A stretch of DNA of 36,659 nt from Spirogloea muscicola (lineage: Eukaryota; Streptophyta; Zygnematophyceae; Spirogloeales; Spirogloeaceae), in the NCBI GenBank assembly GCA_009602725.1, contig WELB01000010.1:1231007-1267665 (forward strand), read 5' to 3'. Shown in pieces: positions 8,666 through 32,800 of this stretch. Below the pieces are notes generated by a model. It was not told the origin of the DNA, ran no database searches, and saw only the letters and a list, made by a program, of their open reading frames with translations. Position numbers and translations under genes: made by a program. Each line of letters starts with the position of its first letter. The first letter of the stretch is position 1.

Positions 8666-9332
8666 CGCTCTGCCCTCACCGCCGGCCCGCACCGCGTCTC
8701 CTGCCTCGCACCCTTCGTTGTAGCCGCAGCGCACGCTGAGGAACCAACCCCCGCGTGCCAAAGTGAGTCATACAACCCACTGCTCTGCCGGCTGTTCGGC
8801 GTCTGTGTGCTTCTGATACACGGCAGTCGAGGACTGTCTGAGAGTGGGTTGATTCGCCGCTTCGCTCCGGCAGTCTTTGACTCCATGTGCACACCTTTGT
8901 CGCTGTGCGCTGCTATTGCGCACAGCGCTTATCAAGTTGCTGTGCTGCTAGGTGACAGGAGCAGGTCATTGCTGAGCAATAACCTGCTCACAGTCTAAGT
9001 TGCAGGATAGTTGTCATAAGTACTATAATCAGCAAGCGCTGAGCTTTTCCTTTAGGACGTCGTGGTCACTCTTTAGCCTTTGCAACTGCGTCAGATTGTC
9101 AAAATTGTTTGCAGTACCTACTTTGGCCTTGTCATGAGCCCCTCAGCTTGAGCAGTTGCGCGTCTTGGATGTGCATCTTGTGACCTCTCCTTGTCATGCA
9201 CCATTGATATTGTCAAACATGCATGAGTCCTTGTGGTTTGACCGTCACTGTCGCAGGTCAATATGTATAAGTGGACTTGTCATGCTCTCTGACTATCTTG
9301 CCCGTTTGATACTCTTTGACAACAGGAACTGA
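7831..9332. promoter_or_regulatory. Divergent promoter of Vms1 and the polyamine gene
   Basis: This 1.5-kb interval lies between two divergent genes. It holds GCC/CGG tracts near both ends (about 7860-7895 next to the Vms1 start, and 8635-8670) and a 12-bp palindrome, CGATTTAAATCG, at 8479-8490. A plausible 5' UTR intron for the + strand gene has a donor GTGAGT at 8763 and an acceptor CAACAG ending at 9325, just ahead of the tiny uORF. Long ORFs here on both strands are GC-repeat artefacts. Transcription starts are not determined. Confidence 0.55.
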
Positions 9333-9341
9333 ATGACCTAA
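9333..9341 (+). CDS. Tiny uORF of the AdoMetDC mRNA leader
   Basis: ATG ACC TAA encodes Met-Thr. Its stop overlaps the start of the next ORF by one base (TAATG). This is the one-nucleotide-overlap arrangement known in land-plant AdoMetDC mRNAs, where the tiny uORF is translated when polyamine is low and thereby bypasses the inhibitory small uORF. The overlap is read directly; the regulatory role is transferred from plants. Confidence 0.82.
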   Translation: MT

Positions 9342-9891
9342 TGGAGTCAGTTTCAAGCGAAAAGGACTCTAGTAGCAGTAGTTCCATGCAGTACGAGCTG
9401 CCTCTTGGGTATGTCATTGAGGACGTACGCCCTGACGGAGGAGTAGACATCTTCCGTTCGGCTGCTTACAGCAACGTAAGCTGTCCTCACACTGCTGTGC
9501 ATGTATGCTATTTGAGTAGGCTGATAGATCCATTAGCTGCTACATAAGCAATTGTAAGAGATAGTTGAGAAGCATGAGATGCAGCTGTTATGGTTGAGAA
9601 GCATGAGATGCAGCTGTTGTAGGCGTCTCACCTAGGAGTGGTCATGTACTTTAGTATCTGATGTTCTTGCATGATACTCTTGCTCATGGAGTCAGTTTTA
9701 AGACTTGCCACTGTTGCAAGTTGACAAGCTGTTGTGCTGGTGGTAAATCTGTTTTGGGCGTGGGTGGTCATGGCGCATGATGCTTTGTCTGCACAATCAT
9801 AGTCAGGAGAAGCTGAGTGACAGAGCCTTATACATGTTCTTGCTAACAACGTGTCTTCATTCACTTGCAGTGCGTCCGCAAGCCATCCTGA
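9341..9891 (+). CDS. Conserved small uORF (AdoMetDC leader peptide)
   Basis: Exons 9341-9475 and 9871-9891 are joined by a GT-AG intron and give 51 codons plus TGA. The peptide starts MESVSSEKDSSSSSS, continues with ELPLGYVIEDVRPDGG, and ends RSAAYSNCVRKPS. Land-plant AdoMetDC small uORF peptides share the serine run, the PLGYSIEDVRPNGG core and the FRSAAYSNCARKPS end. In plants this peptide stalls ribosomes when spermidine or spermine is high and represses the downstream ORF. The intron interrupts the uORF between SN and CVRKPS, so the conserved end exists only in spliced mRNA. The main ATG follows 100 nt after the uORF stop, with no other ATG between, which suits reinitiation or leaky scanning. 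Confidence 0.93.
9564..9620 (+). repeat. Two-copy 29-bp tandem repeat in the uORF intron
   Basis: GTTGAGAAGCATGAGATGCA and the following nine bases occur twice in direct tandem (9564-9592 and 9593-9620), nearly identically. It looks like a recent local duplication within the intron of the small uORF. Confidence 0.85.
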
Positions 9892-9991
9892 TATCCAGCT
9901 AGTGGTGTAAAACTTCTTGCTCACGTGCCGAGGGCATACCTAGGCGCCCCCCCTCCCACACCTGTGGGGTCCTCCATTTGCTGCCTCAGAT

Positions 9992-12900
9992 ATGGGGATC
10001 CTATCACAGCAGGACGTGGAGGGGGGCGCTGCTCATGCGCCATGCTCGCTACCCTGCTTCGGCTTTGAGGGCTTTGAGAAGCGGTTGGAAGTGGAGTTTT
10101 CTCCTGCGCCCTTCTTGAGCAACAACAATAAGGCCGGCCTGCGGGCGCTGTCTCGCGCAGCCATTGATGGCTTCCTCGCGGCTGCTGAGTGCACCATCGT
10201 CTCGCAGCTTTCCAACGATCTCATGGACTCGTATGTCCTTTCTGAGTCCAGCCTCTTCATCTACCCTCACCGGGTCATTGTCAAGACCTGCGGCACCACA
10301 CGGCTTCTGCAGAGCATCCCATTGCTGCTGGAGAGTGCAGCGGACTTGGGCATGGCGGCCATGCGATGCAAGTATACGCGCGGCTCCTTCCATTTTCCCG
10401 AGGCGCAGCCATATGGTGGCAATTTTGCAGAGGAGGTGAAGGTCCTGGAGGAGCATTTTGGCCACTTGGGGTCCGGTGGTCAATCATATGTGCTGGGGAA
10501 CACACTTCAGTTTCCCAATTGGCATGTGTATGAGGTCAGTGCTGAGCAGGCGGCAGGCTGCAAGCCCCTGTACACCTTGGAGATTTGCATGACCAAGCTG
10601 GACCGCAAAGTGGCCAGCCAATTCTACCAGGGTGCAGGCTATGACTCCCCGGCGGCACTCACCAAGGCCTCGGGGATTAGGGACCTGCTCCCACTATCGG
10701 ACATCAACGACTACTGCTTCGAGCCCTGCGGTTACTCCATGAATTCGATCGAGCAGGCGTCTCACTCAACCATCCACATCACGCCCGAAGAAGCATTCAG
10801 CTATGCTAGCTTCGAGACCCAGGGGTACGATGCGGAGAATGTGCAGCTGGGGAAACTTGTCAAGCAGGTGGCTGAAACTTTCAAGCCGGACTGCTTCTCG
10901 GTGGCCTTGCATGCTGCTGGCCTTTCCAGTACCACAGTCAAGGGTGCCTCCTGGGCCAAAGCTGTTCCTGTTCCTGAGCCCTATGTGTGTGATGGGACTA
11001 GCCGGCAAGATTTACCTTGTGGAAGTGCCGTGGTCTTTCACAACTTCAAGCTGCGCAAGTTAGTGGAAGCAGGGCAAGAGTGTGTGCCACTGTCTTTGGC
11101 CCTCCCAGAGCCACTGTCTTTGAAGTCATTGCCACAGCCTACTGAGCCGTTCGGTAAGTCTATGAAATATGGCTGTGTTGTGCGAACGTTTGTATATGAA
11201 ATCGAGGCCATAGTTGTTGCTGATTCTTTCTGGCTTTGTGCTTTACTTGTTTCTCCTACTTGTTACTTTGAGCAATTTGTTATCCTATTACCCTTCTATT
11301 TAGCTATACGCAATCCCGTCAGCCTCAATAGTTCTTTCTGTGTATAAGCAGTAGGCAGTCTATTCTCATGTGACAGTTGGTCGTGCGCTCTTCTCTTCTT
11401 TATGTGGCTTAGCTTGGCATGCCACCTTTTGATTTCTAATTGGGCCACACTTACTTCGTCACTCATGTCTTGTTGCCTTTGCAGGTAAAGCCAGGTTTGA
11501 TGCGATTGGCTCAACCTTGACTGACATGGACTCGTACGTACGAGCCGTCGTGAAATCAACCAATTCCGAGGATGCATTCTACGTGCTGGACATTGGCCTG
11601 CTGGTCCGCCTGTACCACCAGTGGCAGGAGGCTCTACCGCGCGTGCAGCCCTTCTACGCAGTCAAGTGCAACCAGGACGCAACACTCCTTGCCGTCCTAG
11701 CATCGCTGGGTTCCGGGTTTGATGTTGCCAGCAAGGCAGAGATGGCAGCTGTGATGGCTATGGGTGTGCAGCAGGGCAACATCATCTACGCCAATCCCTG
11801 CAAGCTCCCCTCCCACATTGAGGAGGCTCAGGATAGGGGCATACGCCTGACAACATTTGACAGTGAGGACGAGCTCTACAAGCTGAAGAAGATCTACCCC
11901 GAAGCCCATGTAGTGCTGCGCCTGCGGGCCGACGACCTGAATGCACGCTGTCCCCTGGGGACGAAGTACGGGGCAAACATGGATGAATGTCAGGGGCTCC
12001 TTGCCGTGGCAGCCTCTCTGGGCCTGCATGTTGCTGGGGTCGCCTTCCACGTCGGCTCGGGAGCATCTGATGGTCGCTCGTATTTTGATGCCATTGCTGC
12101 TACCAAGGACATCTTTGATATGGCTGAAAGCATGGGCCTTCCCAAGATGACCATTCTGGATATTGGCGGAGGCTTTACCTCAGCTGGCGGCCACGGAGCA
12201 AGCTTTGAGAATGCCGCTGCTGCTATAAATGAAGCACTTGAGAAGTTCTTCCCTGAAGATACGGGAGTGAAGGTGAGCAAGTCAGCAGTTTTTGCAGTCA
12301 GAATCTTTGGTCTACGTGTTTGAATGTATCATGGTATGTGGTTTGCTTATTTAGCACTAAACCTGCTGTTTGTTGACAAATCACATTCTCTGGCCTTTGC
12401 AGGTGATTGCAGAGCCAGGCCGTTACTTCGCTGAGGCACCAATTACTCTGGCAGCACAAGTTTTTGGCCGCCGCATGCGGGGCAGGTCCCATGCTCGCTC
12501 CGCCGAGTACTGGATCAACGACGGGATCTATGGGTCCATGAACTGCTTGCTCTACGACCATGCTGAGTTGACAGTCAGGCCCCTGCAGTGTGCTGCCGTG
12601 CTCTCGGCTGCACCTGCACCACCCATCAAGTCCACCATATTCGGGCCAACCTGCGACGGCCTTGATACGGTGTTGCGGGATGTGTGGTTGCCGCAGCTTG
12701 AGTGCGGTGACTGGCTTGTGTTCCCTCGTATGGGCGCATACACAAAGGCCGCAGGATCAAGCTTCAACGGTTTCAACACAGCCGATATTCGCACCATGTA
12801 CGTCTACTCGGAGGAGCAGGGCAGTGATGATGAGGCAGCAGAAACGTGCGAGTCAGATAGCGAGGGGACAACAGATGATGATGATGACTGTCGCGCAGGA

Positions 12901-13008
12901 CTGAGTGATGATGCGAACCCATCAGATTCATCGCATGCAGTGGGGCTATCTGCGTACCATGCTGGCAGCAGCAGCGAGGAGGATGACGATGCATATGACC
13001 TGCCTTAG
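9992..13008 (+). CDS. Bifunctional S-adenosylmethionine decarboxylase-ornithine decarboxylase fusion
   Basis: Exons 9992-11153, 11485-12272 and 12403-13008 total 2556 nt, giving 851 residues and a stop. The N-terminal half is AdoMet[14 protein letters not shown] (E26, E29), the self-processing site YVLSESS (cleavage expected at E85|S86, making the pyruvoyl group), KTCGTT (C100), and [13 protein letters not shown]. After a linker of about 50 residues comes eukaryotic-type [11 protein letters not shown] (PLP lysine near K448), [38 protein letters not shown] (D690), GPTCDGLD (catalytic C734), MGAYT and FNGF. A strongly acidic Ser/Asp/Glu tail of about 65 residues ends the protein. ODC makes putrescine and AdoMetDC makes decarboxylated AdoMet, the two substrates of spermidine synthase. 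The intron joining the halves is GT-AG and keeps frame (phase 1), and no TGTAA signal is seen inside it. If that intron is retained, the ORF ends at 11347, giving AdoMetDC alone with a hydrophobic tail. A separate ODC gene starting at the ATG at 11526 cannot be excluded without transcripts. Both active sites look intact. Confidence 0.85.
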
Positions 13009-16700: not shown

Positions 16701-16846
16701 GGCAGCCTTCTTGCGCTCCAGCGCCGCGGGGTCGCCGACGACCACGCCGCCGGGCAGCCGCGGCGGCGCCACCGACGCCGCCGCCNNNNGGCGGCGGCGG
16801 CGGCGCGCGCGAGGCGCGACGGCGGGGGCGGGGGCGGCATCGCCAT
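13739..16846 (-). CDS. Cytosolic 5'-nucleotidase III / pyrimidine 5'-nucleotidase (UMPH-1 family)
   Basis: A HAD-superfamily enzyme that dephosphorylates pyrimidine nucleoside monophosphates. Exons in transcript order: about 16846-16671, 16317-16257, 16031-15899, 15619-15496, 15242-15186, 14960-14864, 14606-14378, 14110-14050 and 13789-13739. Key segments: DPAALERKKAAFRRAG; VIADFDMTLTKF (HAD motif I, DxDxT, with nucleophile Asp); GGRRGQSSHALVDQG; LNEKYYPMEVDP; LLEGGLTRAAIARSV; PLLIFSAGLADVIEE (motif II); VVSNRMVFDDAGNL; LLLGDHLGDLGMSNGVPY (the motif IV acidic pair); and FLNDNVNKWFDTYVASFDIV. The frame is kept across all junctions. Intron 1 seems to use a GC donor (CAG|GCGGGT). The start is uncertain because four N (16786-16789) in a GCC repeat break exon 1; the ATG at 16846 is the best candidate. 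It gives roughly 330 residues, near the family length, and is probably functional. Confidence 0.88.
16439..16565. repeat. Degenerate telomere-like tract (TTTAGGG) in nucleotidase intron 1
   Basis: About a dozen degenerate TTTAGGG-related units (TTAGGGTT, GGTTTAG, AGGGTTTAGGG, AGGGGTT, CTAGGGTTTTGGG) fill about 125 bp of the intron between exons 1 and 2 of the 5'-nucleotidase gene. This is the most extensive such tract in the window. Confidence 0.8.
16786..16789. other. Sequence gap (NNNN) in a GCC repeat inside exon 1
   Basis: Four N lie within a GCC/GGC repeat in the predicted first exon of the 5'-nucleotidase. The true length and frame across the repeat cannot be read. Confidence 0.95.
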
Positions 16847-17135: not shown

Positions 17136-20100
17136 ATGGAAGCCGCGGGCGCGACGGCGGACGTGCGCGCCGACGGCGAGCCCGCGACGGCCACCCTCGG
17201 CCCGCGGAGCGTCCTGCGGCTCAGCGGCGGCCGGCGGCCGCCCGCCGAGATCAGCCTGCAGGTGCGCTGATCACGGCACTGTCGCCCTCGCTAGCAGGCA
17301 GCGAAACGGCCACGCTGATTGTGAGGCAATGTGCATCCGTCACGACGCCTCTGCGGCCTGCTTCAGCACCGCGAGGCTGCGATTCTTGAGACGATGGTTC
17401 AAGCCTCAGCTTATGCAGCTAACACCTTGGTTGGCTGTGGATATTGAGCAGGAGGACGTCCTGGGGTTCAAGCTCGACAAGGCGTCCCTGAGCTTGGCGC
17501 TGTTCCGGCTGGAGAGGCGGGCCTGCTTTGGCGGGCAGAGGAGAGTACGCAGGGACCTCCTGCTTGAGTTTGACAGCGCCAAGGCCGCCTCTGACTTCTG
17601 CGCCCAAGTGGAAAGCGTTTTTGAACGCTTTGGTGGGATTTCTCATCCTTATTGTCAGTGCAGGCGACAGTGGCAGAAAGTTGTTGTAGGCACAGGCTCA
17701 CTGCACTACTCTGTGTGCTTATGCCGCTGCATTGGTTGGGATACTGTGGATAATCGCAGTGATTTTGCAGCTAATATGGTGGTCATACAGGCCTGCACTC
17801 ACTATACGATCTATCAGATCACTTTGAGAAGACACATACTGTGCTGCAGATGAGTAGCTCATTTTCCGGCTTGTACGTACAAACTTGTATACGTGATGAC
17901 CTTAAGACAGGAAGTCATAGGTCTGACAGATATCCTTCTGTTACACTGCGTCAGGGCGTCCAAAGCGCTTGTATGTGATACTGAACCCAGAGGGTGGTCA
18001 GGGAAAGGCGAGACAAATCTTCAAGAAGGACGTGGAGCCCCTGTTCCAAGCTGCCAATATCGACTACACTATACAAGGCATTGCATCTCCCCTAAGCACC
18101 TATCCTGGACACGATTGCTTGCCGTGTGAGATGGCTGTAACTTTTCTAACTATCATCACCAGCCATCTTACTTCAGATCAGGTCAGTACTAACTGCGAAA
18201 GGTTAGATAGTCAAAAGGCCCCAGGTATTGCAAAACAGGAGGTGTCAGTCGCTTATCTCTTGCACATCCTACTTCTACTCTCTGAAGTCTCATCTGGGGG
18301 CTCACTGAGCAGCGATATGCTTGATCTGCAGAGACGCAGTACCACAGGCATGCCAAGGAGCTGGCAGAAGAGCTTGAGTTAGAGGCTTATGATGGGATTG
18401 TGTGCGTCAGTGGCGATGGCATCCCGGTGGAGGTCTGTATGACATTAATTACTGGGGCATGTTTCGCTTTTACTGGAGAGTAAATCGACTGTCTTTGCAT
18501 ATTGGTTTGGGAGTCCCCCACTGCTGTTCAGATCTTTATCGTTGCTGCAGTAATTGCCACTGTCAAGAGTCTGAATATGTACAAAGAACCCGTGATACTG
18601 GAGGTGCAGGTTGTCAATGGTTTGCTTCAAAGAGGTGACTGGGAAAGGGCAATCAAGATTCCCATCGGGCACATTCCTGCAGGCAAGGCCATTCTTTGAA
18701 GATTCTCAAGTTGAGGCACATGTATGTGTTCACTGAAGTTTGACACTTGGGCTTCTTTTCTGCTGGCCTGCACATCTGCGCTGCTCTGCTATACTGTATA
18801 TACTACAATGTACAATCGTTTGCATGTCTCATGGCAGGCAGAAGTGCAATAACCTTGCTTGCTGATGGTTCTGAGCTCGTGTGGTCTGAGCTCTGAGTTC
18901 TGAGACCTGAGCTCTTAGCTTGTGCCAGTCCTCCAACATGGGGCATGCTGTGGGCAGGTTCCGGCAACGGCTTGGCTAAATCTGCCTGTCACTTAAGTGA
19001 TGAGCAGTGCACACCAGGCAATGCTGCGCTCCTGGTCATAAGAGGTAAGTGCTTCCTAGCAATTTCTAGATGCTTTTGTGTACGCTACCTGCTAGATCTC
19101 AACAGGCATACTGTCTCAGCAGCCATAAGAACGGACTTTGTTAGCTGTTAGCAATTCACTAAATGTAAACCTCTTGGAAGCGCAGACAACTGCTTTGTCA
19201 CTGAGCCCTTGCAGCATATCATTCTTACAACAGGCAATACAAGAAGTATGGATGTGGCCACTGTTTCTCAAGGGGACATCAACTTTCGGAGTATTCTCAA
19301 TATCACGTGGGGTATGTAGTGGGCTGCCTTAAGCTCGCAAGCAATCTTGAATTCAAGAAATCCTCAGTAAGGGCTTCACAGAGGCTGTGAGCTTTATTGA
19401 GCTGCTTCATTGCTGCTGGAGTCGTCTGACTGGCTTAACCAATTAAATTTGACTCAAATTAGGATGCTGCAGGTTTGACGAGCGATGTTGATGTGGAGTC
19501 TGAGAAGTACCGATGGATGGGGGGCTTCCGCCTGACATTTCAAGCTATCATCCGAATCCTGTTTCTCAGGCGATACCGTGGTACCTTTACTTATATTCCA
19601 GCTGAAGATGCACGTGCAACAGAAGAAGTACGAGTTGACATGCCCTCAAGCCAAGGTCCGCATTGCATCTTCCTTTCAGTCGGAAATTATGCAGCTTCAC
19701 ATTTGCAGCTGTGCATGACATCCTTTATCAGTCACAACACCATCGAGCCTGAGGGCTTCTGTACTAGGGCCTTGGCAGGTGTGCTACGGGAGAGCCTGCT
19801 GGCAGGAGATAACGATCCATTTCGATCCGATTCAGCTCGAAGTCTTGGTCTGGACACGGACACAAGTCTCGCAGCAGAAGAGGGCGGCCAGTGGAAGACC
19901 ATAGGCGGCACTTTTGTCCTGGTCTGGTTGCAGAACACACAGTGGGCAGCAACAGACATGCGAGCAGCCCCTAATGCAGAGGTCTGCACACTCACTACTG
20001 TGCAGAGCAACCAGTTGTCAACTTCTGGCTGCAGAGGTGCAGCAGAAATTGAAGCTGGAGCAGCTTACTTTGAAGTCATTAACATGTGATGAAATTACAT

Positions 20101-21384: not shown

Positions 21385-23520
21385 TCACAGATTGCCAATG
21401 TTCTCAACCAGGACAGAGAGCTCGCCCAGCTTTCTGGTGCAAAGCATTAGCCTGAGCACGCTGCAAACAGGCCGAAACTCGTCGTCGCAAGAAAAACAGA
21501 TATGCAGCTGGCAAGCCATCTCAATCGGGAACACATCTGCACATCTTGTGTACCTTAGATTGGCTATGTTTTGAAGGAGAATAAGGAAACGAGGACCTAA
21601 GCAGCCAAAGATGTCGATTGGCGCTGGCAGGAGCTGATCACATTGGGGGTACTCGGAGTAGTGCTGCAAGTTTCTTTGTTCAGCACTGCCCACTGCGCGG
21701 CCAGCGATGTGTGTCAATGCTGGACCTTTATAGGCCTCCGTAACCACAACATCGACCAAGGCCCGTGGTCCTCCACCAGGTTGCATGCCCACAATGTCAA
21801 GTGTGCAGCGATGATGACGTCCCTGGGCATCCGTGGTGATAGGCATGATGCTGTTCACTTCCACGACCGCACGGTACCTGGCGTCGCGCATCAAACCCGC
21901 CAGGGCATCACGGAGGAGGTTGTGGAGGCCCACCACTTCTGGTCCAGTGGGGCATCGCAGCATGTGAGGGGCGAGCTCAGCACCCTCTGCACGGAAGACG
22001 CCCTCACACTGGCGCACCCCAATCAGGCAGTTAGGTGGGAGGCTGAGGAAAAGTTGAAGCAACGTCCGAAAGGCCTCGGAGCTGATGCTGAAGGCGTTGG
22101 CCACGGCGTGTGAGGTGATCCAGTCTGTGGCTCCAGGTGTGGCGAGGGAAGTAAGTCTTGCCAGGCTCCTTGGATTGTTGTGAATCTCCGGCAGCCTCCT
22201 CAAGCTTCTGCGGCGCTCATCTTCCACTGCCGTAACCAGTCTGGATTGTGCCCCTCTATCCGAAGCTTGGGCGAGGGCGGAGAATGGCGTGAGTAGGGGT
22301 TGTGTAGAGGGGAAAGAGCCGATTGCCGAGTCATGGATGCTCCTCAGATCCGCTTGGAAGGGAAAGGAGCCTTCCTCCACATTGCGTACGGGATCGTAGA
22401 GGCAAGGGAAGCGCATGGGAAGCATAGAGGCGATCTGGTGCCAGCAGCCCAGGAAGGCTGCTTGCACCGTCTGCTCCAACGACCGGCAGCCAAGGCCGCC
22501 CATGCGAGTGGGGAGGGAAGCCTGGAGAGAAGATGAAGCGGAGGGGAAAGAGGATGATTGTAGAAGGGATGCCAGGGACTGCAGCAGGGAGTTGTCGAAC
22601 TCCTTGTAGAGCTCGCCCACCATGCCCATTGGGGCGACTGTCTGTTGCAGGTAGCATGCCCGTTGCCCGATGCAGCGGGTGAGAATGGCCAACGCCAGCT
22701 GTGTGTCCCCAAGGAGGGGAAGGGAAGGGAGGGGGGCGAGGTGTTTTTGGAGGCGTTCCCGCAAGTCCACACGCCACGTGAGCTGGTGTGCCGAGGGTGA
22801 CCTTGATAATGGCCAGCCCATTGGCAGGGGTCTGGCAGCCGTGGGGGAGCTGAAGGTTGGCGGGGAGACCGCGTGGGGACCATGCCACGCTCTTGGACAG
22901 GCAAACCCGCAGGCCCATCAGGTCCAGTTCACGAACGAGCAAGGGGTAAGCCGCCATGACTTCAGCTGGAGGTCCAATGATGTCTGTATCATGGAAATGA
23001 AATGAATGCGGCTGCTGATATCATGGGGAGGGGAAGAGGAGGTCTGGGTGTTGCCTCTGGGTGCGCCGTATAGCCCGACAATGTGCCAAGGCAAACAGGA
23101 TGGGCTAAGAGGATCCCCCTGGCGTGTGCCAGAAGATGACCACAGCGTCTTCCACGACTCTCCGGCTTGCCACAGCAGCCGCCCTGGGCGACCATAGGCC
23201 ATGAGGAAAACGGGTATAAGTGAAGGGAAGTGGTTGCGCAGCTCCTCCATGATGACGCTGCGCTCCACTGTGTTGAAGGCGTTACTATATCCAGCCCAAG
23301 GACCATTGTTGAAGGGTCCACGTCGAGAGCAGCGCGGATGCCGTGGACGAGGGCCTCCGCCCCGCAGGACATACCATCACCAATTGGTGGGGTCATAGGT
23401 GGCTGGTCAGCTGGGGTTTCAGCTTGCTGCACACGGCCTTTGATACCAGCCGCATGATAGCCTCCGTCATCGCAATGATGCGGGGACCGCCGCCGGGCGG
23501 GATGGCGACCAGGCCGGCGC
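21385..23520 (-). mobile_element. Non-LTR retrotransposon (LINE) copy B: RT domain and C-terminal region, decayed
   Basis: The minus strand carries a LINE reverse transcriptase spread over several frames. Segments in order: AMTEAIMRLVSKAVCSKLKP, DGMSCGAEALVHGIRAALD, NAFNTVERSVIMEELR, GTRQGDPLSP, and the catalytic box region read as FHDTDIIGPPAEVMAAYP, degenerate compared with the usual FADD/YADD. A long uninterrupted C-terminal ORF follows (22821-21385, 478 residues) with TRMGGLGCRS, FLSLPPNCLIGVRQCEG, a Cys/His cluster (ELAPHMLRC), HNLLRDALAG, and PGGGPRALVDVVVTEA, which resembles the C-terminal nuclease-like region of algal and animal LINE proteins. Frame changes across the RT domain show decay, while the C-terminal part is still open. 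The LINE class is firm; the clade is not. Confidence 0.8.
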
Positions 23521-24363
23521 GTCGGGTATGGAGCTGGCCGTCCGCACCCTGCTGGATGGGCACTATCGAGGAATTTTCCACGGCCACCTTGTAGCCTGCC
23601 TCTACGAACACCCCCTGCATGCCATCTCGCAGGAGGTCGTGGGAACCTCGTGGGAACCGGTCCTCTCGCCCCCGTGCGCGCAACGGAGCATGTGCGCAGC
23701 CAGCTCAGCAGGGTCGGCGTGACGGGCACCGCACTCGCACTGAGTGACGCCCACGATGCAGGGAGGGAGGAGGCCCAAGAGCAGGTGGACCGCCGTTCGG
23801 AAGACCTCATCTGGCATGGTGAGCGCCGCGTATAGTGGGAGCGCCGATGATAACGCCGCCGCCCCAGGGGAGGAGGCTGAGAGAAGCCGCGCGCGCGCGC
23901 CCGCGAAGGTTAGGCGGAGGGAGAAGCTCCACCACCTGGTCAAAGGCCGCTTTCTCGACCAGCGCCGTGTAGCATGCCTGGGCACGCAGGTCAGGGGTGT
24001 GGGCAAGGTGGATGAAAGGGGTGCCTGCTCCGACATGTTGGGGTGGACCGTCAGGAGCCCGTCGCGGGCAGAGCGGAGGGTAGCCTGGAAGGCAGCTGGC
24101 CGATCTCCACTTCAGCTGCCGCCCGCTCCAGGGCGCGCTGGCCGTGAACGATATACCGCTGGCACATCGGGGCCGCAACCTGAGCTCCAGCTGCCCAGGT
24201 AGGCCCGCCTCGCAGGCGCGGGCAACTGAGCGGAATCCCAAGCCGCAACGGCTGACCGGCAGGCTAGCCTGTAGCAGCGCAGGTGGTGAGGTGAGGAACG
24301 CGGGGTGCTGAATAAGGGTGGCCGCGAGAAGGGGCCAGGGGAAGCACTAAGAAAACCAAGCAC
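23485..24363 (-). mobile_element. Non-LTR retrotransposon copy A: C-terminal fragment, decayed
   Basis: Upstream of copy B on the same strand is a second, diverged C-terminal fragment of the same LINE family: AVAAWDSAQLPAPARRAYLG, FRTAVHLLLGLLPPCIVGV, CECGARHADPAELAAHMLRC, HDLLRDGMQGVFVEAGYKVA and NSSIVPIQQGADGQLHTRR. It aligns with copy B segments FRTLLQLFLSLPPNCLIGV, ELAPHMLRC, HNLLRDALAGL and NSIMPITTDAQGRHHR. Its end passes directly into the RT domain of copy B near 23485-23520. The fragment spans more than one frame and is not functional. Confidence 0.75.
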
Positions 24364-25930: not shown

Positions 25931-28806
<2,876 letters not shown>

Positions 28807-29864: not shown

Positions 29865-32800
29865 ATGGCCGACGTGCGCTGCGCCGCTGCGGGCGAGGCG
29901 CACACGCTCGTCGTGACAGGTGGGACGATGCTCCCCCACGCTCGCCAGTGCTCCTCAAAGGCACCTTGGCGGCCGCCCCGCCGCTTGCCCTGTCGGCTGG
30001 TAGCCTCGAGCTGGCCCTCGGGCGTGCGATGACGAGAAGGCGGCGAGCGGCTCTGGCGCGTGTCTCCCCCGATGGCCGTGCTGCAGACGGGGGCCGCCTA
30101 GCCGCCTGGGGCCGCGGCGGCTTCGGCCGCCTCGGCACGGGCGTCTCAGAGGACGCCGCGCTCCCGCGGCTCGTCGCCCTGCGGAGTCCGGCGCCAGAGC
30201 GCCGGCCGCCTGCCGTTAGTCCACCGCCACCAGGTGCGCATTCCCATTTCTAATTGCGTTATCTCACACTAACTTTGCATGCAGGTCCTTACGCCAGAAT
30301 AAGGAACGTAATGTTTATAAACCTTAGGGGACGACCTCAGAGCTGCAATGCCAAGTGAGCCAGCAGATGGACCTGTAGGGGTTAGGATTTGATGGCTAGG
30401 AGTTTAGGTTTCATATTGTCTAGGGATTTGGGGTTTAGGTGACCTGTGCACGTTGCTCGCAGGGCCTGACCATCATCGGCTTGCTACAATCAGTGACGGC
30501 GGCTGGCGCGCTGAGCTCTGAAGGCAGGGCTAGAAGCTGCAGCAGAGGAGGAGGAGTGCGTCGTCGCTGCAGCCGCAGGCGCGTACCACGGCCTCGCTTT
30601 GACAGGCAAGCAGCCACCTCACGAACACCAGTGGTTGCACAGCTTTTGTCAACCCACAGCACTTGGCCTGTGCAATGACACGTGAGACCAGCATCAGCTG
30701 TACCTCAATCAAACCTAACATGATAAGTCCTGTACTCCACTCTACCGACTGATAACCTACTTGCGGCAGCTCGTGTCAGTGTGACAGTCTGATTAACATT
30801 GACTCAAGACCTCTGCTGGCGCTCTTTGCAGGGCGAGGCACGGTGTGGACTTGGGGTTATGATGCCTGTATCCTGCAGTCTGGGAGGACTGGATAATCAC
30901 TTGCTGCTCAGGCAACTCACTGCTTAAACAAGCTGCATATGTGCAGTTCCAATCCAAGCAACATCGCAAGCTTTTACAACAGCCACAAAGTGCTGTTTCA
31001 AGGCGGCTAAAATTCTGGCTAGTGTATGAGCCGAAAGTCGACTTGAAGTTCGGTATCTTATACAGCATCACGAGGTTCAAGAAAGTACAATGAACGGCCT
31101 TGCTCTGAGTTAAACTGTCAGGTCTGCATTGCACTCATTCGAGGATAGGTGTCATCAACTGTCAGGCATGTTTGCATTCGCGAGTCAATCCTTGATGTCG
31201 ATGTCATGCAGATGGACAGCTCGGGGGCGGCGAGCAGGACTCACCGTATTCCATACCCAATCCCGTCCAATTTATAGAGGCGGGCCAAGACGCGCACATT
31301 GCGGCCGTGGCGGCGGGAGGTATGATGTCTGCAGCCATTGACGCAGATGGCGGGCTCTGGTTATGGGGCCGCTGCCCTGCTCCTGTCCAACCACCACCCC
31401 TGGGAAGCCTGCACTGTCAGCGAGAGGCAGAGAATGCAGCCGAGGACAGCAGTCGAGCCGGCAGTGGGGAACAAATAGCAACTGCCTGTGACAATCAAGA
31501 GGCACTGTCATCATGCACCGATGCCAGCAGACAGCTTGTCGATGGCGTGGAGAGAACACTGATTGTCGAGGTGCTCCAGACAATCAACATCCCTAAGAGA
31601 CTCTGGCTTCCGCTCAGCACTACCATCCTGGCCGTGGCTTGTGGGAGCGAGCACGTGCTGGCCACAATGACGGTCCTTCCCAGCCGTGCGGTCCCTGCCG
31701 ACTTCAGTCTGACGGATGGAAAACATGGCGCAATGCCCGTGGAGCTCTATGCGTGGGGCTCGAACCAGCATGGCCAGCTGGGCTTGGGCGATACTGCAAA
31801 CCAGAGCACGCCCCAGCGTGTGTTGGAGCTGTGCATGCCTGCTTTCGGCCAGGTTGTGACCTTTGCTTGCGGCGCCTTTCACAGCGTGGTGGTGACCGGC
31901 CCTGCCAAGAGCTCCGCAGACACCCTGCTCGCAGGTCCCAGTACTCCGGACGCTGCGGCGCCCCAGCCAGCAGGGGGCTCGCGGGGCTCTGTGTGCTGGA
32001 CCTTCGGCCTTGGCTCAGATGGTCAGCTGGGCTTGGGAACATCGGCAAGGTAAGACTCAGATTAACAAGCTGGGTGCCAGTGCGTGACTTACATGTATTG
32101 TGAATCATTTTTGCGCTCATTAGCTGCTTTATCATCAGTGTGAAAGTCAAGTTTTTTTAACCTAATGAGTGCAGCCAAGCGCAGCCGAGGCAAGTGCAAG
32201 GCCTGCCAAGGGAGGAACCAATTGCTGCTGTGGCTTGCGGTCTCTTCCACTCCTGCGTTGTGGTGGGCGGCGGCGCCGTCTTCGCCTGGGGCATGGCGGG
32301 TGGCCTAGGCCTCTGCCCGGACTTGGGGCCTCCGGGGGCCGATGCCGGGCCGGCGTTTGTGCCAGTCCGTGTGCCATTGCCGTATGAATGGGGGCCCGTG
32401 CAGAGCATCACCTGCGGTGCTGCGCACACTGTGGCTGTTTGTGATGAGGTGGAGTCTCTAGCCTCTGATATGAAAGCCTAACCCTGAACCCTGAGGAGTA
32501 TCTGGCAGTCTCAAATGTCCACAGCTTTATTCCTGCAATCCCCTCAGCAGAGTGGCAACCTTCTGCAGAATCCATCAAGTGACTGAGAGTACGATTTGTT
32601 TGACTTACTGATGAGATGTATTTCCAGTAAGTCAAACAATTTATGCTTATAATGATTTCAACTGCAGGGAAGGACGTTGTTAGCCTGGGGCCGAAATCAG
32701 AGCGGGGAGCTGGGGAATGGGACCTGCCTAGACAGCTATCTCCCGCAACGCGTGGCATGGCCGCAGCCACAGGGTGCAAGCTGCCTGTACGCATCGGTGC

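Follow-up and report, generated by a model that had tools for sequence, protein, structure and literature searches.

Over little more than 3 kb of its forward strand, a stretch of Spirogloea muscicola DNA carries coding sequence for AdoMetDC followed by coding sequence for ornithine decarboxylase (ODC). This arrangement raises the question of whether the two enzymes are made as one fused protein or from two adjacent genes. Analysis of the entire stretch (36,659 nucleotides of contig WELB01000010.1, hereafter the window) leads us to consider it very probable that the locus is a single nuclear gene, in which a plant-type AdoMetDC, a linker and an ODC form one bifunctional protein behind a plant-type polyamine-sensing leader.

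A spliced frame with two complete enzymes

Joining three exons on the + strand (Table 1) yields a reading frame that encodes an 851-residue protein and ends in TAG. The ATG at 9992 and the TAG at 13006-13008 are borne out in the spliced translation, as is the frame-preserving GT-AG intron at 11154-11484 put forward in the preliminary description. That description had drawn a single frame across one intron; the frame and the intron at 11154-11484 stand, but the count does not, as a second intron is present at 12273-12402 and the frame from exon 2 runs into a stop at 12321-12323 when this intron is left unspliced. In-frame stops at 9908 and 9941 place the main start at 9992 or later. The GC content of the three coding exons is 56-57%, and that of 2-kb windows across the whole stretch is 49-66%.

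Table 1. Features of the AdoMetDC-ODC locus, in window coordinates.
Feature	Position	Strand	Basis
Tiny uORF, ATGACCTAA, Met-Thr-stop, 9 bp	9333..9341	+	One-base overlap, as described for Arabidopsis SAMDC1/SAMDC2 in the available text of PMC5745906 and PMC7503886
Small conserved-peptide uORF, exon 1, 45 codons	9341..9475	+	Match to Arabidopsis uORF peptide
Small-uORF intron, GTAAGC...TTGCAG, 395 nt, phase 0	9476..9870	+	Peptide match continues across
Small uORF, exon 2, CVRKPS and stop	9871..9891	+	Peptide match
Coding exon 1: AdoMetDC domain (residues 24-353) and start of linker	9992..11153	+	PF01536, TIGR00535
Ser86, expected pyruvoyl-forming residue, cleavage Glu85-Ser86	10247..10249	+	Aligned to human position 68
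Junction intron between the enzymes, 331 nt, phase 1, GTAAGT...TTTGCAG	11154..11484	+	Donor/acceptor test, composition
Coding exon 2: end of linker and most of ODC PLP-binding domain	11485..12272	+	PF02784, residues 427-660
Lys448, PLP lysine	11664..11666	+	Aligned to Lys69 of T. brucei ODC
Second coding intron, within ODC, phase 0, GTGAGC...TTTGCAG	12273..12402	+	ODC alignments continue across once removed
Coding exon 3: remaining ODC with C-terminal sheet domain, acidic tail (residues 785-851), TAG	12403..13008	+	PF00278, residues 662-761
Cys734, ODC active-site cysteine	12652..12654	+	Aligned to Cys360 of T. brucei ODC

The first half of the protein matches the Pfam family SAM_decarbox (PF01536) over residues 24-353 (E 2.5e-99; 333.1 bits against a cut-off of 22.2), covering profile positions 3-343 of 343, and the AdoMetDC exon matches the NCBIfam equivalog TIGR00535 at 311.9 bits against a cut-off of 233.15. 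Known active-site residues were mapped onto both enzymes, with positions of our own choosing and catalytic roles that we assume for them. Thirteen of the 18 human AdoMetDC positions are identical (F7, E8, E11, E15, K80, C82, T176, E178, F223, S229, H243, E247 and E256) and four differ (13, 111, 174 and 285). At position 68 the Spirogloea protein has Ser and the solved mutant chain used as reference has Ala; we take the wild-type human residue to be the pyruvoyl-forming Ser. The pyruvoyl serine and active-site residues S86, E26, E29, C100, S249 and H262 are thus all present.

The earlier reading of this half as plant type agrees with the structural comparisons. With the alpha and beta chains of 1mhm, presumably potato AdoMetDC, the AdoMetDC exon reaches 232.1 and 65.3 bits, compared with 167.5 bits for 1msv, the best human chain, which we take to be human AdoMetDC; identity is 52% to the potato alpha segment and 41% to the human enzyme. 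At human positions 13 and 285 the protein has R31 and H307, the counterparts of potato R18 and H294; Lys127 replaces potato R114, and Leu193 stands at the position of human D174, so that the four differences from the human enzyme appear to fit a plant enzyme. Human positions E178 and E256, which we assume to belong to the human putrescine site, are retained. Plant AdoMetDC with these residues is active without putrescine, so putrescine from the fused ODC is probably not an activator of the AdoMetDC half.

In the second half, the Pfam families Orn_Arg_deC_N (PF02784, residues 427-660, E 8e-75) and Orn_DAP_Arg_deC (PF00278, residues 662-761, E 2.9e-18) both score above cut-off; AP_endonuc_2, the fourth Pfam family listed, falls below its own cut-off, and the bacterial and archaeal NCBIfam library gives matches to the ODC exons below cut-offs only. 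This half is 48% identical to T. brucei ODC and keeps 21 of the 22 positions mapped on that enzyme (among them K69, D88, R154, H197, G235-237, E274, R277, D332, C360, D361 and Y389), the exception being Thr in place of P239. Its substrate Asp is D702, and an Asp at T. brucei position 332 presumably favours ornithine over arginine. When the protein was compared with solved structures using phmmer (E <=0.001), the best 60 of 66 matches were headed by ODC chains for the second half and by 1mhm for the first; the ODC and AdoMetDC chains aligned are, we take it, those of T. brucei, mouse, human and potato. The identity of both enzymes is beyond chance at these domain E-values, and the notion of two complete enzymes in one spliced frame is upheld by full-length Pfam domains and by the mapped catalytic residues.

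At its C-terminus the ODC half carries a 67-residue acidic tail (12805-13005), 57% of which is D, E, S or T. Two stretches of this tail combine P, D/E and S/T with zero basic residues, and the tail could be a candidate degradation signal.

Elsewhere in the window, exons of a myo-inositol-1-phosphate synthase (27153-27524; PF07994, E 2.8e-40) and of an RCC1-repeat protein (31307-32053; PF00415, E 4.8e-19) were identified, together with a weak match to the diacylglycerol-kinase catalytic domain at 17969-18382 (E 3.1e-4, below the curated cut-off), sphingosine-kinase-like by eye. Open reading frames on the minus strand between 21385 and 24241 resemble pieces of a non-LTR retroelement by eye, and two of them (21385-22821 and 22989-23810) have no Pfam match. 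Scans for Rfam families and tRNAs gave no hits in the window. Runs of N occur at 16786-16789 (four bases) and 25709 (one base), outside the fusion gene.

The junction between AdoMetDC and ODC

The AdoMetDC profile match extends to residue 353. Of 12 ODC chains aligned, six show homology from residue 396 onward and the remaining six from 402, 403 or 412, which leaves a linker of about 40-60 residues containing the intron at 11154-11484. Only one GTRAG donor is found in 11041-11347. Eleven YAG acceptors were found, one of which was left out for lying within 60 bases of the donor; of the ten tried, a single one, at 11484, keeps the frame open. The intron has 41% GC and 40% T. With a coding score trained on this gene's own two domains, exon-1 codons 354-387 obtain +8.3 bits in the frame used, the other two frames giving -5.3 and -10.4, and exon-2 codons 389-411 obtain -2.3 bits in frame, which is below zero but the best of the three (-13.9 and -18.3 in the others). 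The intron itself, at -51.6 to -66.2 bits, is strongly non-coding.

These observations can be set against an arrangement of two adjacent genes, with AdoMetDC terminating at 11345-11347 and a separate ODC starting from the ATG at 11526. Reading through the intron does meet that in-frame stop, and the first in-frame ATG of exon 2 (Met402) lies near the start of ODC homology, half of the 12 chains aligning only from residue 402 or later. The other half, though, align from residue 396, six residues ahead of this ATG; the 64 residues added by read-through match neither Pfam nor any solved chain, even with E allowed up to 1, and the intron scores as non-coding. Two genes would also have to fit one 3' end and the next promoter into only 178 bases. 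TGTAA is the usual chlorophyte poly(A) signal, and neither it nor AATAAA occurs on the + strand inside 11154-11484 or anywhere between the flanking TGTAA sites at 9906 and 13336. The preliminary description had likewise seen no 3'-processing signal in the junction intron, an absence that is weak evidence since few would be expected in 331 bases. A scan of the junction for bacterial promoters and terminators was empty, and means little for a eukaryote. Taken as a whole, we regard two separate genes as improbable.

Even less probable, in our estimate, is that both forms are made by alternative splicing, removal of the intron giving the fusion and its retention giving AdoMetDC alone (451 residues), with a tunable ratio of the two activities. 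The read-through frame does stay open for 64 codons until the stop, but the splice sites match consensus, the coding score of the intron is negative, the added residues lack a homologue in Pfam or among solved chains, and RNA retaining the intron would, on general grounds, be a likely target of decay. The junction data thus favour one gene, and the sequence supports the single fused gene with AdoMetDC first that had been proposed, for which a fused mRNA and polypeptide are predicted.

Upstream reading frames and a possible shared switch

The leader of this gene contains a dual uORF arrangement of the plant AdoMetDC type (9333-9891), upstream of the coordinates first given for the locus. The last A of the tiny uORF ATGACCTAA is the first base of the small-uORF ATG. 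Once spliced, the small uORF has 51 codons (156 bp) and ends 100 bases upstream of the main ATG. Against a presumed Arabidopsis uORF peptide, its product scores 168, the maximum of 1000 shuffles being 53; without the serine run the score is 128 (shuffles <=38). When the unspliced window is scanned in all six frames with the same peptide, the small uORF comes first with a score of 109, the next best being 35. Further ATGs upstream, at 9219, 9223, 9263 and 9282, could matter if the transcript starts further upstream.

The available text on the Arabidopsis genes describes a one-base overlap, a small uORF of 156-168 bp, introns within the uORFs and an intronless main ORF (PMC5745906), and, for a tiny uORF of 12 bp preceding a small uORF of 156 bp, a switch between low and high polyamine (PMC7503886). 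The same peptide group is recorded from the green algae Ulva and Chlamydomonas in the accessible part of PMC2075485.

By analogy with Arabidopsis, ribosomes at low polyamine would use the tiny uORF and continue to the main ORF, and at high polyamine the small uORF would be translated and the main ORF repressed. Because the main ORF is here the fusion, ODC and AdoMetDC would be repressed together and both precursors shut down. In the predicted protein, self-cleavage of the AdoMetDC half between Glu85 and Ser86 would release a 9.0 kDa beta chain and leave an 82.7 kDa chain comprising alpha and ODC. The ODC half would dimerise and produce putrescine, the AdoMetDC half would yield decarboxylated AdoMet without putrescine activation, like plant enzymes, and spermidine synthase would combine the two products, placing both inputs of spermidine synthesis under a single feedback loop. 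If the Arabidopsis model carries over, the fusion should be subject to polyamine-responsive repression through the small uORF. A single nascent-peptide switch would then govern putrescine and decarboxylated AdoMet supply jointly, and the fusion would offer a natural test of why these enzymes fuse, with shared translational feedback as the candidate advantage.

Origin of the probable fusion and comparison with known systems

Relatives of the locus were sought in contig collections that are viral and prokaryotic by description and not meant to contain algae. No relative of the AdoMetDC exon, the uORF peptide, the ODC exon, or the AdoMetDC or ODC alignments was confirmed among the viral contigs. 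Among genome contigs, none of the 41 pattern matches to the AdoMetDC alignment proved to be a relative; five of the 114 to the ODC alignment did, all of them bacterial records with 27-38% identity in the best segment. These collections yielded no other genome with this junction. A viral or bacterial source was rejected, given the lack of AdoMetDC relatives and the 27-38% identity of the bacterial ODC matches against 48% to T. brucei ODC. Two features of the locus, its uORF peptide and its plant-type AdoMetDC, place it in the green lineage.

The succession of a uORF intron, an intronless AdoMetDC coding part and then the junction intron suggests two tandem genes that became spliced together. 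The gene thus probably arose by splicing AdoMetDC, with its intronless main ORF, onto a downstream ODC gene, and the fusion is likely independent of that in Plasmodium. A fuller reading, in which the fusion is independent of both Plasmodium and Micromonas, the AdoMetDC uORF circuit captured ODC, and one uORF pair governs both supply steps, is put forward tentatively, as we give it slightly less than an even chance.

An AdoMetDC-ODC fusion in Micromonas is reportedly mentioned in the abstract of Green et al. 2011 (Mol Microbiol 81:1109). The earlier view that green algae have these enzymes only as separate genes has to be abandoned, as a single Micromonas pusilla accession (XP_003057072.1) is listed under both ODC and SAMDC in Table 2 of PMC6356823. 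This class of fusion is therefore already known in green algae and is not new; its occurrence there is probably wider than Micromonas. That one accession stands for both activities would fit descent of the Spirogloea and Micromonas fusions from a common ancestor with loss elsewhere, an origin compatible with the single-gene reading; we hold it to be rather unlikely, as the same table gives Bathycoccus, Chlamydomonas and Volvox separate ODC and SAMDC accessions (PMC6356823). Chlorella variabilis has no SAMDC listed there.

The Micromonas protein is a close parallel in kind, both enzymes lying in one protein of a green alga, to judge from the accession listing (PMC6356823). The GC content of the window and its long introns are not what DNA of Micromonas itself would be expected to show. 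Fusions of AdoMetDC with aminopropyltransferase, from bacteria and diatoms, also join enzymes of the polyamine pathway but differ in the partner (PMC6356823 and PMC12803844, as far as their available text goes); an AdoMetDC-ODC fusion does not appear in the accessible parts of PMC12803844, PMC10407285 and PMC9992855. None of the literature matches listed, covered as titles and abstract openings with subscription papers mostly outside coverage, reports a dual uORF on an AdoMetDC-ODC fusion.

The single ORF and the position of AdoMetDC ahead of ODC are shared with Plasmodium, whose bifunctional enzyme also has AdoMetDC first. The accessible text on the parasite describes both enzymes in one open reading frame (PMC5004602) and, for P. 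falciparum, six parasite-specific inserts, hinge included (PMC1890295). Large inserts or a long hinge of this type were not seen in Spirogloea: alignment of the AdoMetDC half with the potato alpha segment, and of the ODC half with T. brucei ODC, shows no large insert. The linker is of about 40-60 residues, the AdoMetDC resembles that of plants, and the fusion is preceded by a plant uORF pair. With the plant AdoMetDC genes of conserved-peptide uORF group 3, as described in the available text of PMC2075485, PMC5745906 and PMC7503886, the Spirogloea gene shares the one-base overlap, the 156-bp small uORF, the uORF intron and the intronless AdoMetDC coding part. It differs from them in that the tiny uORF is 9 bp long, against 12 bp in Arabidopsis, and in that the main ORF extends into ODC.
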